Source: Desulfobacterales bacterium
GTDB taxonomy: Bacteria; Desulfobacterota; Desulfobacteria; Desulfobacterales; JAHDSC01
Direction: 5' to 3'
Length of the DNA: 64,000 bases
Assembly (NCBI GenBank): GCA_018432925.1
Contig: JAHDSC010000101.1
Coordinates: 1 to 64,000 of the forward strand
Part shown: positions 8,041 to 48,971 of the stretch, in pieces
How positions within the stretch are numbered: the stretch's first letter is position 1
How the letters are laid out: each line of letters opens with the position of its first letter
Made by a program: the position numbers and the translations under genes
The notes under the pieces: model-generated
The model's database searches: none
The model's input: only the letters and a program-made list of their open reading frames with translations
What the model was told of the DNA's origin: nothing

Positions 8041-9105
8041 TTAGAGCCATCTTTTTTTTCTGAAAAAAAACAGCATAATAACTGCCACCGCAATCATAAC
8101 CAGCCAAACCGCAAAATATCCCCAGCGCCAATCAAGTTCCGGCATGTATTTAAAATTCATGCCGTAAACCCCGGCCACAAAAGTGATCGGAATAAATAGG
8201 GTCGCAATAATTGTCAACACCTTCATTACTTCATTCATTTTGTTGCTAATCGTGGAAAGATAAATATCAAGCAGGCCGGCGAGTATATCCCGAAAAGACT
8301 CAATCGTATCCATTACCTGTATAGTATGATCATAAATATCTCTTAAATACATGCCGGTTGACTCTTGAATAAATGGCGATGCTCCTTTTTCCAATCTGCT
8401 GAGAATTTCCCGCACCGGCCAAACCTGCCTGCGTAAATAGATCATCTCTCCTCTCATTTCATAAATGCTTTCCAAAGCCCGCGGAGTGGGATTTTCAAGG
8501 ATTTCATCTTCCAGAAATTCTATTTTTTCTCCGAATATTTCGAGTATAAGGAAATAATGATCAACGACTGCGTCCATTAGGGTATATGCGAGATAGTCGC
8601 CTGACAATCTTCGGATCCGGCCTTTTCCGTTTCTAATTCTGTTTCTTACGCTCTCAAAAACATCCCCGGCCATCTCCTGAAAGGATATGAGGAAATCCGA
8701 ACCGATGATCAGACTCACTTGCTCAGACCGAACCTCCTGTTCCTTCTCTTCGTATCGAAGCATTTTAAAAACAATATACGTATAATCATCGAAGTCATCA
8801 CTTTTCGGTCGTTGTCCCGTGTTTAGAATATCTTCCAGCGTAAGAGGGTGAAGATTAAAATGTTTCCCGATTTTTCCAATCATCTCGACATCATGAAGCC
8901 CCTCGATGTTGATCCATTTGACGGGGGGTTTTCCATTGAAAGGAATCAATTCATCAATGTTTTTTATTTCTTTTTCCTGGAATTTTCCCTCATCATATTC
9001 GATAAGGGTGATCTTCACTTTCTCCGTCTTTTTTTCCCCGATATGGATGAGAGCCCCAGGAGGAAGCCCTGCTTTTTTCGATGCCCGTTTCATTGATCTC
9101 GGCAT
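8041..9105 (-). CDS. corA: CorA-family magnesium/cobalt transporter
   Basis: A 354-residue homologue of the pentameric CorA divalent-cation channel of the inner membrane. A large cytoplasmic domain occupies about residues 1-290, with two C-terminal membrane helices. The selectivity signature YGMN follows the first helix (YGMNFKYMPELDW), and basic residues (FFRKKRWL) end the protein. The N-terminal VKWINIEGLHD segment is also typical. The ATG at 9105 fits family length. It lies 134 bp downstream of the sulfur oxygenase reductase gene on the same strand, so co-transcription is possible but no functional link is known. Confidence 0.93.
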   Translation of the reverse strand: MPRSMKRASKKAGLPPGALIHIGEKKTEKVKITLIEYDEGKFQEKEIKNIDELIPFNGKPPVKWINIEGLHDVEMIGKIGKHFNLHPLTLEDILNTGQRPKSDDFDDYTYIVFKMLRYEEKEQEVRSEQVSLIIGSDFLISFQEMAGDVFESVRNRIRNGKGRIRRLSGDYLAYTLMDAVVDHYFLILEIFGEKIEFLEDEILENPTPRALESIYEMRGEMIYLRRQVWPVREILSRLEKGASPFIQESTGMYLRDIYDHTIQVMDTIESFRDILAGLLDIYLSTISNKMNEVMKVLTIIATLFIPITFVAGVYGMNFKYMPELDWRWGYFAVWLVMIAVAVIMLFFFRKKRWL

Positions 9106-9239: not shown

Positions 9240-10208
9240 TTATGAGAGCATTGCCCGCCAGCCCGGTTCCTCCATCATCGGCTGAAAAAACATGATATAT
9301 GGGCCTCGAATCAGGTGCGCCATAACGCCTGTATCATGGATTTTTCTGATATTATGGTTGACCAGTACCTTGGCAAAACCCAGCTGTGCCATTTCTGCTG
9401 CATCCCATTCGCTGTGAATTAAATACTCCGGCGGATTGGGCTTGGCATCGGGAGTCGAGAATAAGGGTTTGGGGTTTTTGGGAGGATTTGCTCCCAGCGT
9501 CTCCAGCGCCTCACCCGTGGATTTCGGATCCATCATGAAGCTGCCCAACGCGCAGACACCAATTTGTCTGAGTATCATATATCCCAAAAAGCCGGTGGAA
9601 TCGGAGATGGATTCCATGGTTTCAATGGCTCCCTGCTCGAAGCGTTTTTCTTTACCGGGCATGACCGTATGCTCGGCTATTGCCACACAACGCTGGGGCA
9701 TAGCGAAGCGAATGAATTCTTTTTTTTGCTGAATATCCATGCCAAGATCGGTGATCTGTCCCATCGATCGAATCGGAGGCATTTTGGCTTTTATTATCCG
9801 GTAAACAGGTTCCCATGGCCCCTCAATGACCATGGACATGCAGGAGCCGCACAATTCAAAAACCCGGTCAAACTGTTTTTGATGGAAATCGTCGTGGTCC
9901 TGCCAGGTTTTCCACATGGTATACTGATAATTACGAATCGGATTCAGTTCCTTTTCCATATGCAGTTTCCCGCCGCCATAACGACCTGCCAAAGGAAGGA
10001 TTCCGGTCTGAATGTTCGCCTGAAAACCTACGAAACCAGGATGCTCAGCGGTTGTAATACAAACCTTTGGTCCGACTTTATGCATCAGTTGGAAGCTTTC
10101 CTCGGTATTGGCAATTTTTGATGTATTCAGGGCAAGGTAAATCGGACTATCCGGTTCCGTATGCCCCATCGGTTTTTCGTTTGATGGTATTTTTTGATTT
10201 TTGGCCAT
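9240..10208 (-). CDS. sor: sulfur oxygenase reductase (SOR)
   Basis: A 322-residue homologue of the cytoplasmic 24-meric non-haem iron enzyme that, with O2, disproportionates elemental sulfur to sulfite/thiosulfate and sulfide. Compared from memory with the Acidianus ambivalens enzyme, every catalytic position is present at a constant offset of 19. C50 (in VGPKVC) matches the persulfide-forming C31; H105, H109 and E133 match iron ligands H86, H90 and E114; C120 and C123 match C101 and C104. HPGFVGFQ, GILP and GPWEP are also conserved. The N-terminus is about 20 residues longer. AAGGAGAG lies 6 nt before the ATG. No other sulfur genes are adjacent. An O2-dependent enzyme is unexpected in an apparently anaerobic genome. 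Confidence 0.92.
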   Translation of the reverse strand: MAKNQKIPSNEKPMGHTEPDSPIYLALNTSKIANTEESFQLMHKVGPKVCITTAEHPGFVGFQANIQTGILPLAGRYGGGKLHMEKELNPIRNYQYTMWKTWQDHDDFHQKQFDRVFELCGSCMSMVIEGPWEPVYRIIKAKMPPIRSMGQITDLGMDIQQKKEFIRFAMPQRCVAIAEHTVMPGKEKRFEQGAIETMESISDSTGFLGYMILRQIGVCALGSFMMDPKSTGEALETLGANPPKNPKPLFSTPDAKPNPPEYLIHSEWDAAEMAQLGFAKVLVNHNIRKIHDTGVMAHLIRGPYIMFFQPMMEEPGWRAMLS

Positions 10209-10556
10209 GTTTTTCTCTCCTTTTTAATTTTGGCCGATTTATAGATGACAAAGTCTCTAAAAAGACAACGGTACTTCGTGAGAATGTTCAGGGTTTTTGA
10301 GAGTAAAAAAACAGATAAAAAAAAAGATAAAAATCGATACTGGAAATTATTCGTTCCGAATCAATGATGGCGCATGTCGAGAAAGAAGCAGGAATGTCGT
10401 TTCAACTAATAAAATATATTATTCTTACTGAATAATCAAATAGCTTTTGGTGCCGATCGGATCTTATGATAAAATTATAATAATGATTTTGTTTGATTTT
10501 GTTATTAATTTCCAATCGTTGAAAAAAAGTTGGATCAAATGATCGCAGGCTTTTAA
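10209..10556. other. 348-bp divergent intergenic region
   Basis: Separates the sulfur oxygenase reductase gene (minus) from the tamB-like gene (plus) and should hold both promoters. TTGGTG followed after 17 bp by TAAAAT near 10446-10474 is a possible sigma70-type promoter for tamB. No gene is visible. Confidence 0.4.
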
Positions 10557-20177: not shown

Positions 20178-20771
20178 TCAACCGATACACCGATTGACAA
20201 AATCCCAGTTTATGAGATGATCAACAAAAGCGCTCACGTAATCAGGTCTTTTATTTTGATAGTCCAGATAGTAGGCATGCTCCCAAACATCCACAGTTAA
20301 AAGTGGTTTTAAACCATGGACAAAAGGAGTATCCGCGTTTGAAGTCTTGATGACCTCCAAATTGCCGTTTTTTAAAATCAACCATGCCCACCCGCTTCCA
20401 AATTGGCCGATGGCTGCAGTTTTGAACTCCTCTACAAATTTATCATAGCTTCCGAAATCCGCATCGATTTTCTCCTTGATCATACCCCTCGGAGAACCGC
20501 CTCCATTTGGTTTCATGCACTGCCAGTAAAAAGAATGGTTCCAAACCTGAGCGGCGTTATTAAAAATGCCGATTCTGGAGGCATCACCTGACGTTTCTTT
20601 GATAATGGTTTCTAAACTCTTTTTTTCTAAATCCGTTCCTCCGATAAGCCGGTTGGTGTTTGCGATATATCCGCTATGATGTTTTCCATGATGAAATTCC
20701 AAGGTTCTTGAGCTGATATACGGTTCCAAAGCAGTTTTTGGATACGGCAAATCAAGCAATGATAGAGCCAT
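20178..20771 (-). CDS. sodB: iron superoxide dismutase
   Basis: A 197-residue Fe/Mn-family superoxide dismutase. The ATG at 20771 is chosen because AGGAG lies 5 nt upstream; an upstream ATG at 20786 has no such site. Metal ligands are in EFHHGKHH, in QVWNHSFYW and in DVWEHAYY (Asp and His). The NNAAQVWNH segment, with glutamine in the second sphere, points to the iron form. No signal peptide, so cytoplasmic. It is monocistronic and shares a terminator with aspS. It indicates that the host meets oxygen. Confidence 0.95.
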   Translation of the reverse strand: MALSLLDLPYPKTALEPYISSRTLEFHHGKHHSGYIANTNRLIGGTDLEKKSLETIIKETSGDASRIGIFNNAAQVWNHSFYWQCMKPNGGGSPRGMIKEKIDADFGSYDKFVEEFKTAAIGQFGSGWAWLILKNGNLEVIKTSNADTPFVHGLKPLLTVDVWEHAYYLDYQNKRPDYVSAFVDHLINWDFVNRCIG

Positions 20772-20960
20772 AATTTCTCCTTTCATTTTTTAAACCGAAG
20801 TTCATTTGAAATTATCTAAATGTCTTCGGTAGGTATGAAATGCAAATATTCGCAGAAAAGGAAAAAAACATAGGAAGGATTAACCAGATTCGTTGTACAC
20901 AAGTTGAATTTGAATAAAATGATCCACAATCCGAAATATCCATCGAAAGAGCAACAACCA

Positions 20961-28333: not shown

Positions 28334-29326
28334 ATGCGAAAAATTTGGGTACGGGTTGACCCGTGGAACAAACAACTGGTAACCACTGCAATCGAAGGCG
28401 GTGCCGATGGTATTATGGTACCGAAGGGATTTTCTGAAAAAGTTAAAGAATTGGGAAAGATACAAACGATTTCAGAGGACGGCGATCTCGTAATCGGAAA
28501 AGATGTAGACTTTTTCACAATAAAAAGCAAAGAGGACGAAGAAGAAATTGCCAAGCGTACCAAAAAACAACAGCTTATTCTTCAATGCAGCGACTGGACA
28601 ATCATTCCGCTTGAGAATCTGATTGCAAAAGGCGCTCCTGTTATTGCGCAAGTCAGGAACCTTGAGGAAGCGAAAACCGCGTTCGGAATTCTGGAAAAAG
28701 GGGTGGATCATATTCTTCTGCATACGCCGGATCCGATAGAGTTGAAAAAGGTACTTTCCTTGATTGTCTCCGTCGAAGGAAACATAAGGCTGGAAGCTGC
28801 TGAAACACTCAAAGTCGTCCCGGTTGGAATGGGGGACAGGGTTTGTGTGGATACCTGCACGGCCATGACGATGGGTCAGGGAATGCTTGTAGGAAACAGC
28901 AGCAGCGCCATGTTCCTGGTCCATTCGGAAAGCATAGCCAATCCTTATGTTGCTCCCAGGCCGTTTAGGGTAAATGCGGGTGCCGTTCACGCCTACACCA
29001 GGACTCCCGGCGGCAAGACACGTTATCTTTCGGAACTATCGGCCGGTGATCCGATTTTAATTGTCGACTTCAAAGGAACGACAACCATTGGAACGGTGGG
29101 ACGCATCAAGATCGAAAAACGTCCATTGATGCTGGTAACGGCTGCCGTCGGAGACAGAAAAATCACGACTATTCTTCAGAATGCAGAAACGATTCGATTG
29201 ACCAATCCCGAAGGCAAACCGGTGTCCATCGTTAACCTTGAACCCGGAGATCGGATTCTTGTCGCGACGGAGGAATCCGGTCGGCATTTTGGCCATAAAA
29301 TTGAAGAGGCGATTACGGAAAGGTAG
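28334..29326 (+). CDS. 3-dehydroquinate synthase II (archaeal type)
   Basis: A 330-residue homologue of Methanocaldococcus MJ1249. It makes 3-dehydroquinate from ADH by oxidative deamination and cyclisation (NAD-dependent), the second step of the alternative route, and replaces AroB. The N-terminus (KIWVRVDPWNKQLVTTAIEGGADG) and the long conserved block GDRVCVDTCTAMTMGQGMLVGNSS followed by RPFRVNAGAVHAY are hallmarks. CCGGAGC precedes the ATG. It follows the ADH synthase gene by 163 bp and precedes pheA by 12 bp. The pair of archaeal-type enzymes is known in some bacteria, including Desulfobacterota. Confidence 0.95.
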   Translation: MRKIWVRVDPWNKQLVTTAIEGGADGIMVPKGFSEKVKELGKIQTISEDGDLVIGKDVDFFTIKSKEDEEEIAKRTKKQQLILQCSDWTIIPLENLIAKGAPVIAQVRNLEEAKTAFGILEKGVDHILLHTPDPIELKKVLSLIVSVEGNIRLEAAETLKVVPVGMGDRVCVDTCTAMTMGQGMLVGNSSSAMFLVHSESIANPYVAPRPFRVNAGAVHAYTRTPGGKTRYLSELSAGDPILIVDFKGTTTIGTVGRIKIEKRPLMLVTAAVGDRKITTILQNAETIRLTNPEGKPVSIVNLEPGDRILVATEESGRHFGHKIEEAITER

Positions 29327-31526: not shown

Positions 31527-32792
31527 ATGATTGAAATCATTGTACCCCTAAAAATAAAAGATGCCGAGGTAACCGTTCCCGGTTCAAAATCTTATACCCA
31601 CCGAATTTTAATTGCCGCGGCATTGTCGGATGGAATCTGTACATTACACAATTGCCTGGAAAGCGAGGATACACGACTTACGCTCGAAGCCTTAAAAAAA
31701 ATGGGGGTGAAAATTGAGGCGATCAATGATCGATGGGTCGTACACGGTACAAAAGGCCGATTGACCGCTTGCGCGGATTCCTTTCATTTGGGCAATTCAG
31801 GCACTTCGATGCGGTTTCTGACAGCCGTCGCTTCTATCGGAAATGGCATATACACACTGACGGGAACAAAACGTCTGCAAGAGCGACCGATTCAGGACCT
31901 GATCGACGGCTTGAGCCAGATCGGGGTTAAGGTCCGTGCGCTGAAAAACAATGGATGCCCGCCTGTAGAAATTGAAGGGGGGAAGATAAAAGGCGGAAAC
32001 GTTGCGTTGAAATGCAAAACAAGCAGCCAGTATCTTTCCGCACTTCTCCTGATTTCACCATACACCGAAAACGGCCTCGATATTCGGGTTATCGAGGGGC
32101 CGGTATCGAAACCCTATATAGACATGACGATTGAGGTGATGACAAGGTTCGGCATAGATGTTAAACGAAGCGGTTATAACCAATTCACAATCTCCGGAAA
32201 GCAGACTTACAAGGCAGGCATCTATACGATTGAACCGGATGCCTCGCAGGCGGGCTACTTCTGGGCCGCAGCTGCAATAACCGGAGCTGCGATAAAGGTT
32301 AAAGGAATCACCAGGGAATCATGTCAGGGGGACGTCCGTTTTACTGCACTCCTTGAGGCCATGGGATGTAAAATCCTTCAGGAAAAGGACGGGATAAAGG
32401 TATGCGGCAACACGCTCTCAGCCATTGAGACCGATATGGCCGACATCCCGGATATGGTGCCGACAATGGCGGTTGTCGCCGCCTTTGCCAAAGGGACCAC
32501 GGTTATTAAAAATGTGGCACATCTAAGAGCAAAGGAAAGCGATCGTCTGGCTTCGGTAGCAGATGAACTCGTAAAAATTGGAATCGATGCACGTTGCAAC
32601 GAAACCGGTCTGATGATTAAGGGGGGCGCCGCTCACGGAGCTACGATCGATACGCATGGAGACCATCGGATCGCAATGAGCTTTTCCCTGGCCGGACTTA
32701 AAATCCCGGGCATTTTCATTCAGGACGAAAGCTGCGTCGAGAAATCTTTTCCAAATTTCTGGAAGGTCTTCGGAGAATTGTATCAAGGATGA
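31527..32792 (+). CDS. aroA: 3-phosphoshikimate 1-carboxyvinyltransferase (EPSP synthase)
   Basis: A 421-residue enzyme that transfers enolpyruvate from PEP to shikimate 3-phosphate. Motifs: PGSKSYTHR with catalytic lysine and arginine, LGNSGTSMRFL, SSQYLSALLL, RAKESDRL and GDHRIAMS. GAGG is placed 7 nt before the ATG. The stop overlaps the start of aroK by 4 bp, indicating translational coupling. The PEP loop reads GNSGTS, and I make no claim on inhibitor sensitivity. Confidence 0.97.
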   Translation: MIEIIVPLKIKDAEVTVPGSKSYTHRILIAAALSDGICTLHNCLESEDTRLTLEALKKMGVKIEAINDRWVVHGTKGRLTACADSFHLGNSGTSMRFLTAVASIGNGIYTLTGTKRLQERPIQDLIDGLSQIGVKVRALKNNGCPPVEIEGGKIKGGNVALKCKTSSQYLSALLLISPYTENGLDIRVIEGPVSKPYIDMTIEVMTRFGIDVKRSGYNQFTISGKQTYKAGIYTIEPDASQAGYFWAAAAITGAAIKVKGITRESCQGDVRFTALLEAMGCKILQEKDGIKVCGNTLSAIETDMADIPDMVPTMAVVAAFAKGTTVIKNVAHLRAKESDRLASVADELVKIGIDARCNETGLMIKGGAAHGATIDTHGDHRIAMSFSLAGLKIPGIFIQDESCVEKSFPNFWKVFGELYQG

Positions 32793-42792: not shown

Positions 42793-44109
42793 TTATTTTT
42801 TCCTCAAGATGCCCGCAATAAATTCAGCAGAAGCCGTCACCGCAGGAACGACAACGCTATTACCGATTTGTTTATAAGCCTGTGTATTTGATACAGGAAT
42901 AATAAATTTATCAGGGTTGTAACCTTGGAGTTGCATGGCTTCATTTATTGACAAACGCCGTGGCCTGTCATTTTTCTGCTCAACTAAAATTTCAGCACCG
43001 TCCTTGTGATAACGAGCTGAAATTGTTCTTGTAACTTCGCCCCTCTTTATTGGCAGATGATGAATGCCATAACCAAATCCGTTACCTCGCTCTGCGTGAT
43101 GCGCTTTATGTCTCTGCAGCGTATCCCATGTCCCCGGTCCTAAAGTATGTCCATCAACGTTATTTTTTATTATTGTTTTCAATTCTGGATATAAATAGTC
43201 GGATGCGGGTGAATCAGGAATTAATATTTCTTCTTTTTTAATTTTTATCTGCATTGGATCAAAGCCGATAATGAATATTCTCTCCCTGTGCTGCGGTACC
43301 CATTTTGCGCCGTCCACAATTTTCCATGCGATTGTATATCCAAGCTCATCTTCAAGGGAATGCCGAATTGTTGCAAATGTTTTTCCCTTGTCATGAGATA
43401 AAAGGTTTTTGACATTTTCAAGCAGGAATGCTTTGGGTCTTTTAACGCGCAGAATCTCTTTTATTTCAAAAAACAGTGTCCCCTGTGTTTCGTCTTTAAA
43501 GCCATGTTTTCTGCCCAGTGAGTTTTTCTTTGATACTCCGGCCAGGGAAAATGGCTGACACGGAAAACCGGCGCACAATATATCATGATCGGGAATTTCT
43601 GATTTTACAATATTTCTGATATCGCCATAAGGCACTTCGCCAAAATTTGCTTCATAGGTCTGTTTTGCATACTTATCCCATTCACTTGTAAAGACGCATT
43701 TTCCACCAGCACTCTGGAACGCAAGGCGAAAACCGCCGATTCCGGCAAACAGATCGATAAAGGTAAAATCCCAAGTGACTGGCGGGGGGTACGGCAAATC
43801 ATCAAACAAAAAATCAAGTCTCAACTCGTAGGGCTTTTGTGGCTCGCAAACACAAAATTCATGTGCTTTTTCAGTATCTTCTTTCCCATAACGACACATG
43901 AATGAAACACATTCATTCCGCATGGTATTGGTAAATAATGGCACATTAAGGTCCGGATTTTGAAACCAGTGACTTAACGATGCGTTTATTTCTGCAGTCT
44001 CCTCTTTCCTTATCCAAGGTTGAGAAAGGAGATATGCGGTCAATTCCTGAAAAATATTGTTTCTGTTCAATTTGTATTCCTGTTTAAGTCCATCTCGTTT
44101 TGTGAACAT
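42793..44109 (-). CDS. dcm: DNA (cytosine-5) methyltransferase, Dcm/M.EcoRII type
   Basis: A 438-residue C5-methyltransferase expected to modify the inner C of CCWGG and protect against the downstream nuclease. An N-terminal extension of about 110 residues, as in Dcm, is followed by FIDLFAGIGGFRLAF (motif I), GFPCQPFSLAG (motif IV with the catalytic Cys), LLENVKNL (motif VI) and QHRERIFIIGF (motif VIII). The target region ends GNGFGYG; RTISARYHKDGAEIL, RRLSINEAMQLQGY and QIGNSVVVP (motifs IX-X) follow. First gene of the methylase-nuclease-vsr set; no strong ribosome binding site at the ATG. Confidence 0.95.
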   Translation of the reverse strand: MFTKRDGLKQEYKLNRNNIFQELTAYLLSQPWIRKEETAEINASLSHWFQNPDLNVPLFTNTMRNECVSFMCRYGKEDTEKAHEFCVCEPQKPYELRLDFLFDDLPYPPPVTWDFTFIDLFAGIGGFRLAFQSAGGKCVFTSEWDKYAKQTYEANFGEVPYGDIRNIVKSEIPDHDILCAGFPCQPFSLAGVSKKNSLGRKHGFKDETQGTLFFEIKEILRVKRPKAFLLENVKNLLSHDKGKTFATIRHSLEDELGYTIAWKIVDGAKWVPQHRERIFIIGFDPMQIKIKKEEILIPDSPASDYLYPELKTIIKNNVDGHTLGPGTWDTLQRHKAHHAERGNGFGYGIHHLPIKRGEVTRTISARYHKDGAEILVEQKNDRPRRLSINEAMQLQGYNPDKFIIPVSNTQAYKQIGNSVVVPAVTASAEFIAGILRKK

Positions 44110-46586: not shown

Positions 46587-48971
46587 TCATTGTTTCCTGG
46601 CGCTGATAAACGCAAAGAAATAAGCTGAAACGGCGCAGGCCATTAATAAATTGATTCCCATGCTGAGGGCGATTGGAACCGACAGGATCGAGGTTAAAAC
46701 GGAGGCACATCCGTTTACGGCCCATGCATAGGCCCGCTGGATCGGGCTTTCCAATAAATATCGCATGCCGATGGGAAAGGGAAGGCCCATCATAATTCCT
46801 AAGGGAAAAAGGATCAGGATCGCCGCAATCAATCGTGGAATATCGGAAAACCCGAGCATGCGGTACATCATGGAATCCAGGCTGAAAAATACGAGAAGCA
46901 GGATGGCAATCAAAAGAAGCGTTGCATTTCGAAGACCTCGTTTTCCGATGCGGTTGGCCCCGAGACCTCCGATGGCGGAAAAAACAAGGATTCCTGAAAG
47001 AACGACCGTGAGACTGATCACCGGGTCTCCGAAAAGAATGACATATTTCTTAATGAAGAACAGTTCAACAAACATGAAACCCGCTCCCACTGAAAAAAAA
47101 TAGAAAATCTGGGGCAGGGAAGGCTTTTTCAGTCTCTTTGAAATCGCAAGCAGCGGAATTGCCAAAAGAAGAATGGAGACCAGGAGGGCTTCAATAAAAA
47201 CGACGGAAACGACGATTTCTCCTGAAAGGAGAAGAGTGTATAGCCTGCTTCCCGTGCTTTTGTACAGCTCGTCAAGCCGAGTCCATTTTAAAAACCGGCT
47301 GGGAAACGGCCGATCATCGGATTGAGGGGCGACATCAAGGAAGTAGGTTTTGAAAAAGCTTTTTTCAGCGCCGGTGCGGTATGCCTCCAGTAAGCGGTTG
47401 ATTTCCATAAAATGATAGGGTTCATCGAATATGTTGAATCGGTTCACCATGTCAGGACGGATATCCCGGATAAAAACGAGATCGAAGTTTTGCTTCCGGG
47501 CAAATTCTTTTATCGTTTCCGTATTCTCCAAAGGCTGTCGGGACACAAAAAAACTAAAGGTGTCCCAATTGCGCAGAACCGCGATATGGTGTTCAGGATT
47601 TTCAATTCCGAGAGTTTTTAAACTTTGGTATACAGTCGCCCATATACGGATTGAATCGGCCGGCGGGAGAAGAAGTTTGCGAGAGAGGATAAGAATGCCG
47701 TCTTCCGTCAGATGGTTTAGATATTCAATGAACGCTTCGATTGTAAAATCGTATTCCTGGCTTAGAGCGGCTGCGCCGGGAAGAGAAGTTCCCCAGTTTT
47801 CAATGTGGATAACGGCAAATCGCTCATCCGTGCGGGTCAGAAACGCTCTGTGGTTTTCGTTTACTACAGAAAGCCCGTATTGTTTGCCGACCATCCGGGC
47901 AATTCCCGGGTCTTGTTCGATAACGCTGATTTTCTTCGCTCCGGATGCAACGGCGCATGGGATACCGGATCCGCCGCCGCGCTGAATTAACAGGACGTGA
48001 TCGGGATTGGGAGACAATCGGTATCCGGCAAAAGCGAGTGTTTCCTCACAAAATTTCAGATCCTTTTGCGTATTTAAACGGTAAAAAACAAACTGATCGT
48101 CGCCGTCCCGGTAGGCAGCCCACTGACTCGGAAGAGCATCCGTGAAACGAAGGCTCAATCCGGGTGCAAAACGGATATAAGGGCTCTTTACACTGTCAAT
48201 CCTGCCTCTTAAGCGGGTTTCGGTTTCGGAAAGAGAGGTGTCGGGAAATCTAAGAATCTGGCTCAGGGATTTATAGGGAGACGGTTGAACTTCGATTATT
48301 GATTCGGCACCGAACACAAGAACCGCCGCGACTGCGGTAATCGCAATTCCTGCTGTGGCGCAGACTCCTTTTCCAATATCCCTGCCTTTTGCCAACCTCT
48401 TTTTTCCAGTTGATTTCGATACGGGAAGGATCAAAATTACCAGGGGCAGGATAGCGGATGAGATGATCAGTTTCCCCTCGCCAAGCAATGGAAGGAGAGG
48501 CGCGGGAAAAATTGCTCCGAAAGCCGAACCCGCCATACTGGCAAAATAGATGAACGCTGTTTTTTCAGGAATGAATGAATAAGCGATGGAAACGATTAAT
48601 CCGGCAAAAAAGAAAGGGATCGACAGAAGAACATAAGCAATCAGGAGATAAATAATCTGTGCGGGTTCAATCGGAAGCCTGAAATAGTCCAGGGGCATAT
48701 GGTTCAGAACAAGAAAGGATGTAATCGCGCTCAACGAATAGAAGGTAACCAGTATTCTTACCGTTCCGGCGGCGGAAAGTCGCTCCCTCCATCCTTTTGT
48801 CCGGGCATCGAGGATACTCAATAAGATTCCGCTTGCCGCAAACCCAAAAAGCGCAATGCTGATTACCATAAAGGAAAGATGGTTCCACTGGCTGATCGAA
48901 AAGATCCGGGTCAGAAGCACCTCAAAGATCAGGGAAGAAAACGACAGCAGGAAGACCGCTGCATGGATCAT
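46587..48971 (-). CDS. membrane-bound spermidine synthase-like protein
   Basis: A 794-residue inner-membrane protein. About seven N-terminal membrane helices (residues 1-220) precede a soluble Rossmann domain resembling spermine/spermidine synthase (LLIQRGGGSGIPCAVASGAKKISVIEQDP around residues 320-350), and a further block of helices (about 590-790) follows. The usual catalytic GGGDG and downstream acidic motif are only partly kept, so aminopropyl transfer is doubtful. Its start overlaps the pcm stop by 4 bp, so both are co-translated. Exact function unknown. Confidence 0.8.
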   Translation of the reverse strand: MIHAAVFLLSFSSLIFEVLLTRIFSISQWNHLSFMVISIALFGFAASGILLSILDARTKGWRERLSAAGTVRILVTFYSLSAITSFLVLNHMPLDYFRLPIEPAQIIYLLIAYVLLSIPFFFAGLIVSIAYSFIPEKTAFIYFASMAGSAFGAIFPAPLLPLLGEGKLIISSAILPLVILILPVSKSTGKKRLAKGRDIGKGVCATAGIAITAVAAVLVFGAESIIEVQPSPYKSLSQILRFPDTSLSETETRLRGRIDSVKSPYIRFAPGLSLRFTDALPSQWAAYRDGDDQFVFYRLNTQKDLKFCEETLAFAGYRLSPNPDHVLLIQRGGGSGIPCAVASGAKKISVIEQDPGIARMVGKQYGLSVVNENHRAFLTRTDERFAVIHIENWGTSLPGAAALSQEYDFTIEAFIEYLNHLTEDGILILSRKLLLPPADSIRIWATVYQSLKTLGIENPEHHIAVLRNWDTFSFFVSRQPLENTETIKEFARKQNFDLVFIRDIRPDMVNRFNIFDEPYHFMEINRLLEAYRTGAEKSFFKTYFLDVAPQSDDRPFPSRFLKWTRLDELYKSTGSRLYTLLLSGEIVVSVVFIEALLVSILLLAIPLLAISKRLKKPSLPQIFYFFSVGAGFMFVELFFIKKYVILFGDPVISLTVVLSGILVFSAIGGLGANRIGKRGLRNATLLLIAILLLVFFSLDSMMYRMLGFSDIPRLIAAILILFPLGIMMGLPFPIGMRYLLESPIQRAYAWAVNGCASVLTSILSVPIALSMGINLLMACAVSAYFFAFISARKQ

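Follow-up and report, generated by a model that had tools for sequence, protein, structure and literature searches.

As currently known, sulfur oxygenase reductase (SOR) belongs to aerobic sulfur oxidisers, where it is cytoplasmic; that strict anaerobes also have it has been noted as a puzzle since Desulfomicrobium. In the Sulfurisphaera enzyme, iron is bound by His86, His90 and Glu114, and Cys31 is essential (PMC7398979). Within Desulfobacterota, SOR genes are on record in Desulfomicrobium baculatum and in a Desulfomicrobium metagenome-assembled genome (MAG) from Olkiluoto (PMC6137086, PMC5023260); the protein was not seen in the proteome of the Olkiluoto organism, and its role in strict anaerobes was called unclear (PMC6137086). 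In the Bohai Sea, 33 of 39 SOR-bearing MAGs were Desulfobacterota (PMC12345210), and their SORs probably belong to the same branch as the one described here. Described SORs are cytoplasmic, as stated for example in the accessible part of the Bohai Sea report, which gives no export signals, gene neighbours or oxidase content of the hosts. The occurrence of SOR in anaerobic Desulfobacterota as such is thus already known, and the opinion of a preliminary description of our locus, that SOR in such an anaerobe was essentially unknown, does not hold against these records.

Here we analysed a sor gene in a contig stretch of 64,000 nucleotides (the window) from a Desulfobacterales MAG. The Halothiobacillus neapolitanus SOR (6qpa) shares with the window protein ~48% identity over 300 residues, the six catalytic residues and the fold, but it comes from an aerobic sulfur oxidiser, has no N-terminal tail and carries V/L/F in the chimney where the window protein has I/L/I. 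The SORs of Acidianus ambivalens and Sulfurisphaera tokodaii (2cb2, 6m35) are 39-42% identical, with identical iron ligands and pocket cysteines and a colinear fold; unlike the window protein they are archaeal and thermoacidophilic, with F/V/F in the chimney and E87 and Y102 where the window has D and G. The two Desulfomicrobium records resemble our case in being SOR genes of anaerobes of the same phylum, in their case sulfate reducers. What appears to be new is a branch of SORs tagged for Tat export in oxidase-poor anaerobes. Full-text searches covering the literature outside subscription returned no paper with an exported SOR in its title or abstract, and one candidate paper that was opened does not report one. 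It is the grouping of this putatively exported branch with the window copy that makes the latter a variant; taken alone, the window copy would only add one more member to a family already known.

Identity and active site of the window SOR

The window contains the only SOR copy that a Pfam profile search found in the host genome (Table 1). The protein, whose gene starts with an ATG at 10208, matched the Pfam SOR profile PF07682 with 473 bits (E 2.7e-142; curated cut-off 25 bits) over profile positions 2-300 of 300, and this was the sole Pfam match of the ORF. A phmmer search of PDB sequences returned SORs exclusively, the best being 6qpa (E 8e-95), named as the Halothiobacillus neapolitanus SOR by the structure search. 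An AlphaFold2 model built from 20 sequences reached modest confidence (pLDDT 61, pTM 0.64); compared with known structures it found SOR chains on top at Z 20-21 over 265 residues, against Z 10.7 for the next fold, and Foldseek against SOR structures gave E 7e-25. Around residues 41-92 the model is not reliable enough for distances to be measured, and therefore the evidence for the active-site residues comes from the alignment to solved SORs.

Table 1. Features of the sor locus in the window.
Feature	Position	Strand	Evidence
corA, Mg/Co transporter, downstream of sor	8041..9105	-	TIGR00383, 333 bits
sor, sulfur oxygenase reductase, 322 aa	9240..10208	-	PF07682, 473 bits; PDB phmmer; model Z 20-21
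Glu133 (= Glu114), iron ligand	9810..9812	-	Alignment
Cys120 and Cys123 (= Cys101, Cys104), pocket cysteines within LCGSC	9840..9851	-	Alignment
His105 and His109 (= His86, His90), iron ligands	9882..9896	-	Alignment; role from PMC7398979
Cys50 (= Acidianus/Sulfurisphaera Cys31), essential cysteine	10059..10061	-	Alignment; essentiality from PMC7398979
N-terminal tail MAKNQKIPSNEKPMGHTEPD, residues 1-20, at the site of the relatives' Tat signal and spacer	10149..10208	-	Alignment
Ribosome-binding site AAAAAGGAGAG, 5' of the sor ATG	10215..10225	-	Direct sequence reading
Fe/Mn superoxide dismutase (Fe-SOD), ~10 kb from sor	20178..20786	-	Pfam/NCBIfam profile matches

In this alignment, the three iron ligands (H105, H109, E133), the equivalent of the essential Cys31 (C50) and the two pocket cysteines (C120, C123) are all present, and the catalytic set C, H, H, C, C, E is retained in all complete homologues aligned. 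The preliminary description had assigned the protein to the SOR family and placed these six residues at a constant, ungapped offset of 19 from the Acidianus numbering throughout the active-site half; the profile and structural results bear out the family, and the alignment bears out the placement of the residues. Differences lie elsewhere. The chimney, the channel of the tetramer, has I/L/I at the positions of F133/V137/F141 and is thus hydrophobic and non-aromatic, and in the pocket E87 is replaced by D106 and Y102 by G121, two positions that were mutated in Acidianus SOR crystal structures.

With the NCBIfam equivalog NF047630 the window protein scored 320 bits and the solved Halothiobacillus SOR 289, both under the 400-bit cut-off. 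As a solved SOR itself falls below this threshold, the score of the window protein is no argument against membership; the cut-off suits the Acidianus type and does not part SORs from non-SORs. We are nearly certain that the window gene is a true SOR.

Predicted Tat signals in the SOR branch

The window protein (starting with MAKNQKIPSNEKPMGHTEPDSPIYLALN) has a real N-terminal extension of 19-20 residues compared with the solved SORs. The preliminary description had pointed to this extension as unusual, which proved its best lead, but had left it unexplained; close relatives have a Tat signal exactly at this site. Such a signal was recognised in eight complete relatives (L002, L004, L017, L018, L019, L030, L010 and L043; for example MSEKVNGIDRRQFLKLAALTAGSTAFARNLPTALA at the start of L004) and on the contig-edge fragment L025, all of them 67-88% identical to the window SOR. 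The NCBIfam profile TIGR01409 (TAT_signal_seq; cut-off 16.7 bits) gave 18.7-26.3 bits for L002, L004, L017, L018, L019, L030, L010 and the L025 fragment, and L043 is almost identical to the Tat-bearing L010. The same profile matched neither the window SOR nor one untagged relative taken as control, and no Tat signal was found in L005, L006, L007, L008, L009, L020 or the more distant SORs. When the 1369 ORFs in the loci were scanned with a simple pattern for Tat-like starts, 8 matched, among them 4 SORs; this is a rough background only, as the pattern missed several SOR signals that TIGR01409 accepts. L010 comes from an Ectothiorhodospiraceae record (G775), so that the Tat form spans more than one phylum.

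How the window copy relates to these forms is suggested by fragment L025, whose N-terminus reads MGKN-SRGLDRRDFMKMAALTAGGVAFGA-KMPFARAGQTAEEPSSPIYLALN: in the alignment the window protein resembles this same N-terminus minus ~24 residues, in frame. A Tat signal hidden upstream of the window ATG was considered and rejected, since the frame is open for a few codons only and the ATG has its own ribosome-binding site. Comparison of the upstream DNA showed no clear homology outside the coding region. A group of 10 sequences in the tree unites the Tat forms with the window sequence and L007 (support 88/89); the Tat forms with the window alone have support 63/35, and the order inside the group is weakly supported. 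On the best tree the occurrence of the signal takes two changes, and a single origin is not rejected (p-AU 0.45). These observations suggest that the Tat signal may have been lost in the window lineage.

Judged from their signals, the SORs of part of this branch should be periplasmic. The host genome has TatC, as found by family search. The Tat-tagged SOR L004 (G769) sits in a 2.5 Mb genome, yet TatC was not found there, which points either to gaps in this record or to a signal without use in that organism.

Hosts, gene neighbours and proposed role of SOR

The host (G000) is a 3.38 Mb MAG of 198 contigs, 97.8% complete with a contamination estimate of 3.7%, and its gene content was assessed by family searches and on a few stretches. 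Its order also contains MAGs titled Desulfobacterales or Desulfobacteria, which supports the placement in Desulfobacterota first proposed. The family searches of this 97.8% complete genome found neither haem-copper oxidase subunit I (COX1) nor cytochrome bd subunit I (CydA), in keeping with the apparently anaerobic character read earlier from the window. Neither oxidase was found in 13 of the 19 SOR-bearing genomes tested for both; some of the 13 are incomplete, while G000, G231, G373 and G368 (the last taken to be G768, having an identical SOR) are 95-99% complete. As the remaining 6 carry a bd oxidase, a haem-copper oxidase or both, SOR does not depend on the absence of oxidases. DsrA was not found over the cut-off in the host, where the only candidate is a sulfite reductase-like ORF of 238 aa (41 bits), although its order is rich in sulfate reducers.

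At several loci of relatives, the neighbours of sor are more telling than those in the window. At five loci (L002, L005, L013, L014 and L030) sor has a split YeeE/YedE pair (PF04143) next to it; four of these (L002, L013, L014, L030) stem from a single genus or its near relatives, and in L005 the pair lies on the opposite side of sor and comes from a different YeeE subgroup. Multihaem cytochromes are found near sor in L030/L061, L017 and L013, and a ferritin-like gene in L017 and L013. The genes of the L061 locus in G532 are arranged as flavodiiron-type protein, Fe-SOD, ion channel, multihaem cytochrome, Tll0287-like protein, Tat-SOR and YeeE pair, and in L002 a 21-residue remnant of a SOD C-terminus, 71% identical to the window SOD, directly follows sor (L002:8944-9006, + strand). 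Such neighbours suggest a part in defence against oxygen and in the handling of sulfur, on evidence drawn mostly from one genus (g283), L005 and L017 being outside g283 or of unplaced group. In the window, a divergent tamB/bamA-like pair lies upstream of sor, and no sulfur or redox gene neighbours it apart from the SOD 10 kb away. The corA and Fe-SOD genes named in the preliminary description are both real by profile matches; the adjacency of corA has little meaning, as no other SOR locus compared has a counterpart. We thus rejected CorA as a functional partner, and it is probably irrelevant to sor.

Some YeeE/YedE-type genes (L002:9620, + strand; L030, L051, L052, L056) have an in-frame TGA at the signature cysteine (GG-TGA-PSGHG), and in L002 and L030 these genes adjoin sor directly. 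The TGA very probably encodes selenocysteine; a selenocysteine class of PF04143 has been listed before (PMC13188914).

We lean towards the reading that this SOR is retained for defence, dealing with oxygen and sulfur where oxic and anoxic zones meet, and that it is exported in part of the branch; the earlier suggestion of sulfur chemistry at oxic-anoxic interfaces would then be right. The enzyme is expected to be a mononuclear non-haem iron protein assembled in a hollow 24-mer, which would use O2 to turn S0 or polysulfide into sulfite, thiosulfate and sulfide with no external cofactor. Where O2 meets sulfide, zero-valent sulfur would form, and SOR would then consume both this sulfur and O2, its soluble products being taken up by sulfur transporters. 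The reaction would conserve no energy, so that no terminal oxidase would be needed. In part of the branch the Tat-exported enzyme would act in the periplasm, while the window copy, having lost the signal or never had it, would act in the cytoplasm. A more specific version is put forward tentatively: in oxidase-free anaerobes, Tat-exported SOR may serve as a periplasmic sink for O2 and zero-valent sulfur, which would be a means of O2 defence not described so far, and the window lineage may have become cytoplasmic secondarily, by in-frame loss of the twin-arginine and hydrophobic parts.

The export tag on the relatives hints that anaerobes may use SOR to mop up oxygen. Two claims can now be tested, namely that a sulfur enzyme consuming O2 is retained in active form by oxidase-free anaerobes, and that part of them place it outside the cytoplasm. 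If true, sulfidic habitats would have an additional non-respiratory route of O2 removal, and SOR genes in metagenomes could not be used as a marker of aerobic sulfur oxidation.

Alternative explanations

The main rival to defence is a catabolic role, in which SOR would feed an energy-yielding microaerobic sulfur oxidation or disproportionation, sulfite and thiosulfate going to Apr/Sat/Dsr or to thiosulfate reductases as proposed for Acidianus. This would agree with the presence of DsrA over the cut-off in 15 of 24 SOR genomes and with the YeeE/YedE-type transporters and multihaem cytochromes adjoining sor at several loci. However, the host has neither dsrA over the cut-off nor an oxidase, which weakens this explanation for the host, and DsrA is also lacking in at least five other SOR genomes (G769, G770, G771, G773, G774). 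On balance, we consider a catabolic role rather unlikely.

A changed, O2-independent activity, such as plain disproportionation of sulfur or the reduction of polysulfide, would fit a strictly anaerobic life and could be reconciled with the lack of O2-respiration genes in the host and with the natural pocket substitutions at D106 and G121. It appears improbable, given that every complete homologue keeps the six catalytic residues and that L010, closely related and with these residues unchanged, comes from a gammaproteobacterial genome that has both oxidase types (G775).

Equally improbable is a passenger or decaying gene, acquired by transfer and with no present role in the host, an explanation that draws on the distribution of sor. 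In an even sample of 395 genomes across the phylum, 9 had SOR over the cut-off, as did 10 of 389 from the order, counts that include fragments, remnants and the host genome itself; the gene is thus rare (~2-3% of the genomes sampled) and patchily distributed. N-terminally truncated copies with differing break points occur in L013, L014, L015 and L016, and a stop-bearing remnant (L024/L065) in G161, a genome from the host's order that is 99% complete and consists of one contig. The differing break points suggest repeated recent decay. On the contrary, the window ORF is intact, with a ribosome-binding site and a complete active site, and four close pairs of intact genes gave dN/dS of 0.032, 0.068, 0.076 and 0.057. 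By these ratios, intact copies are under strong purifying selection, which indicates that function is retained wherever the gene survives; being rare and often broken, the gene is also dispensable. It is of use in some circumstances and can be done without in others. Carriage of sor by a plasmid or virus was rejected, as neither plasmid nor viral-contig matches were found.

A second, deep SOR lineage is present in the order of the host, in L032 (G495) and L035 (G549), ~30-33% identical to the window SOR; L032 has a close counterpart in 9rdn, a structure solved recently.

Finally, contamination or misbinning of a contig from an aerobic sulfur oxidiser, conceivable for a MAG of 198 contigs with the contamination estimate given above, can be dismissed, as the 64 kb contig has fairly even G+C (sor 48.1%, window 44.9%), the nearest SORs occur in many independent Desulfobacterota MAGs, L004 lies in a 2.5 Mb chromosome record (CP070704) and G161 holds its SOR remnant in a single contig.

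Other genes of the window

Elsewhere, the window encodes a 3-dehydroquinate synthase II, the archaeal-type entry to the shikimate pathway (28334-29326, + strand), near an EPSP synthase (31527-32792). It also contains a C5-cytosine DNA methylase (42793-44109) and, nearby, an ORF of 794 aa without Pfam match (46587-48971), both on the - strand, a region that is possibly a restriction or defence island.
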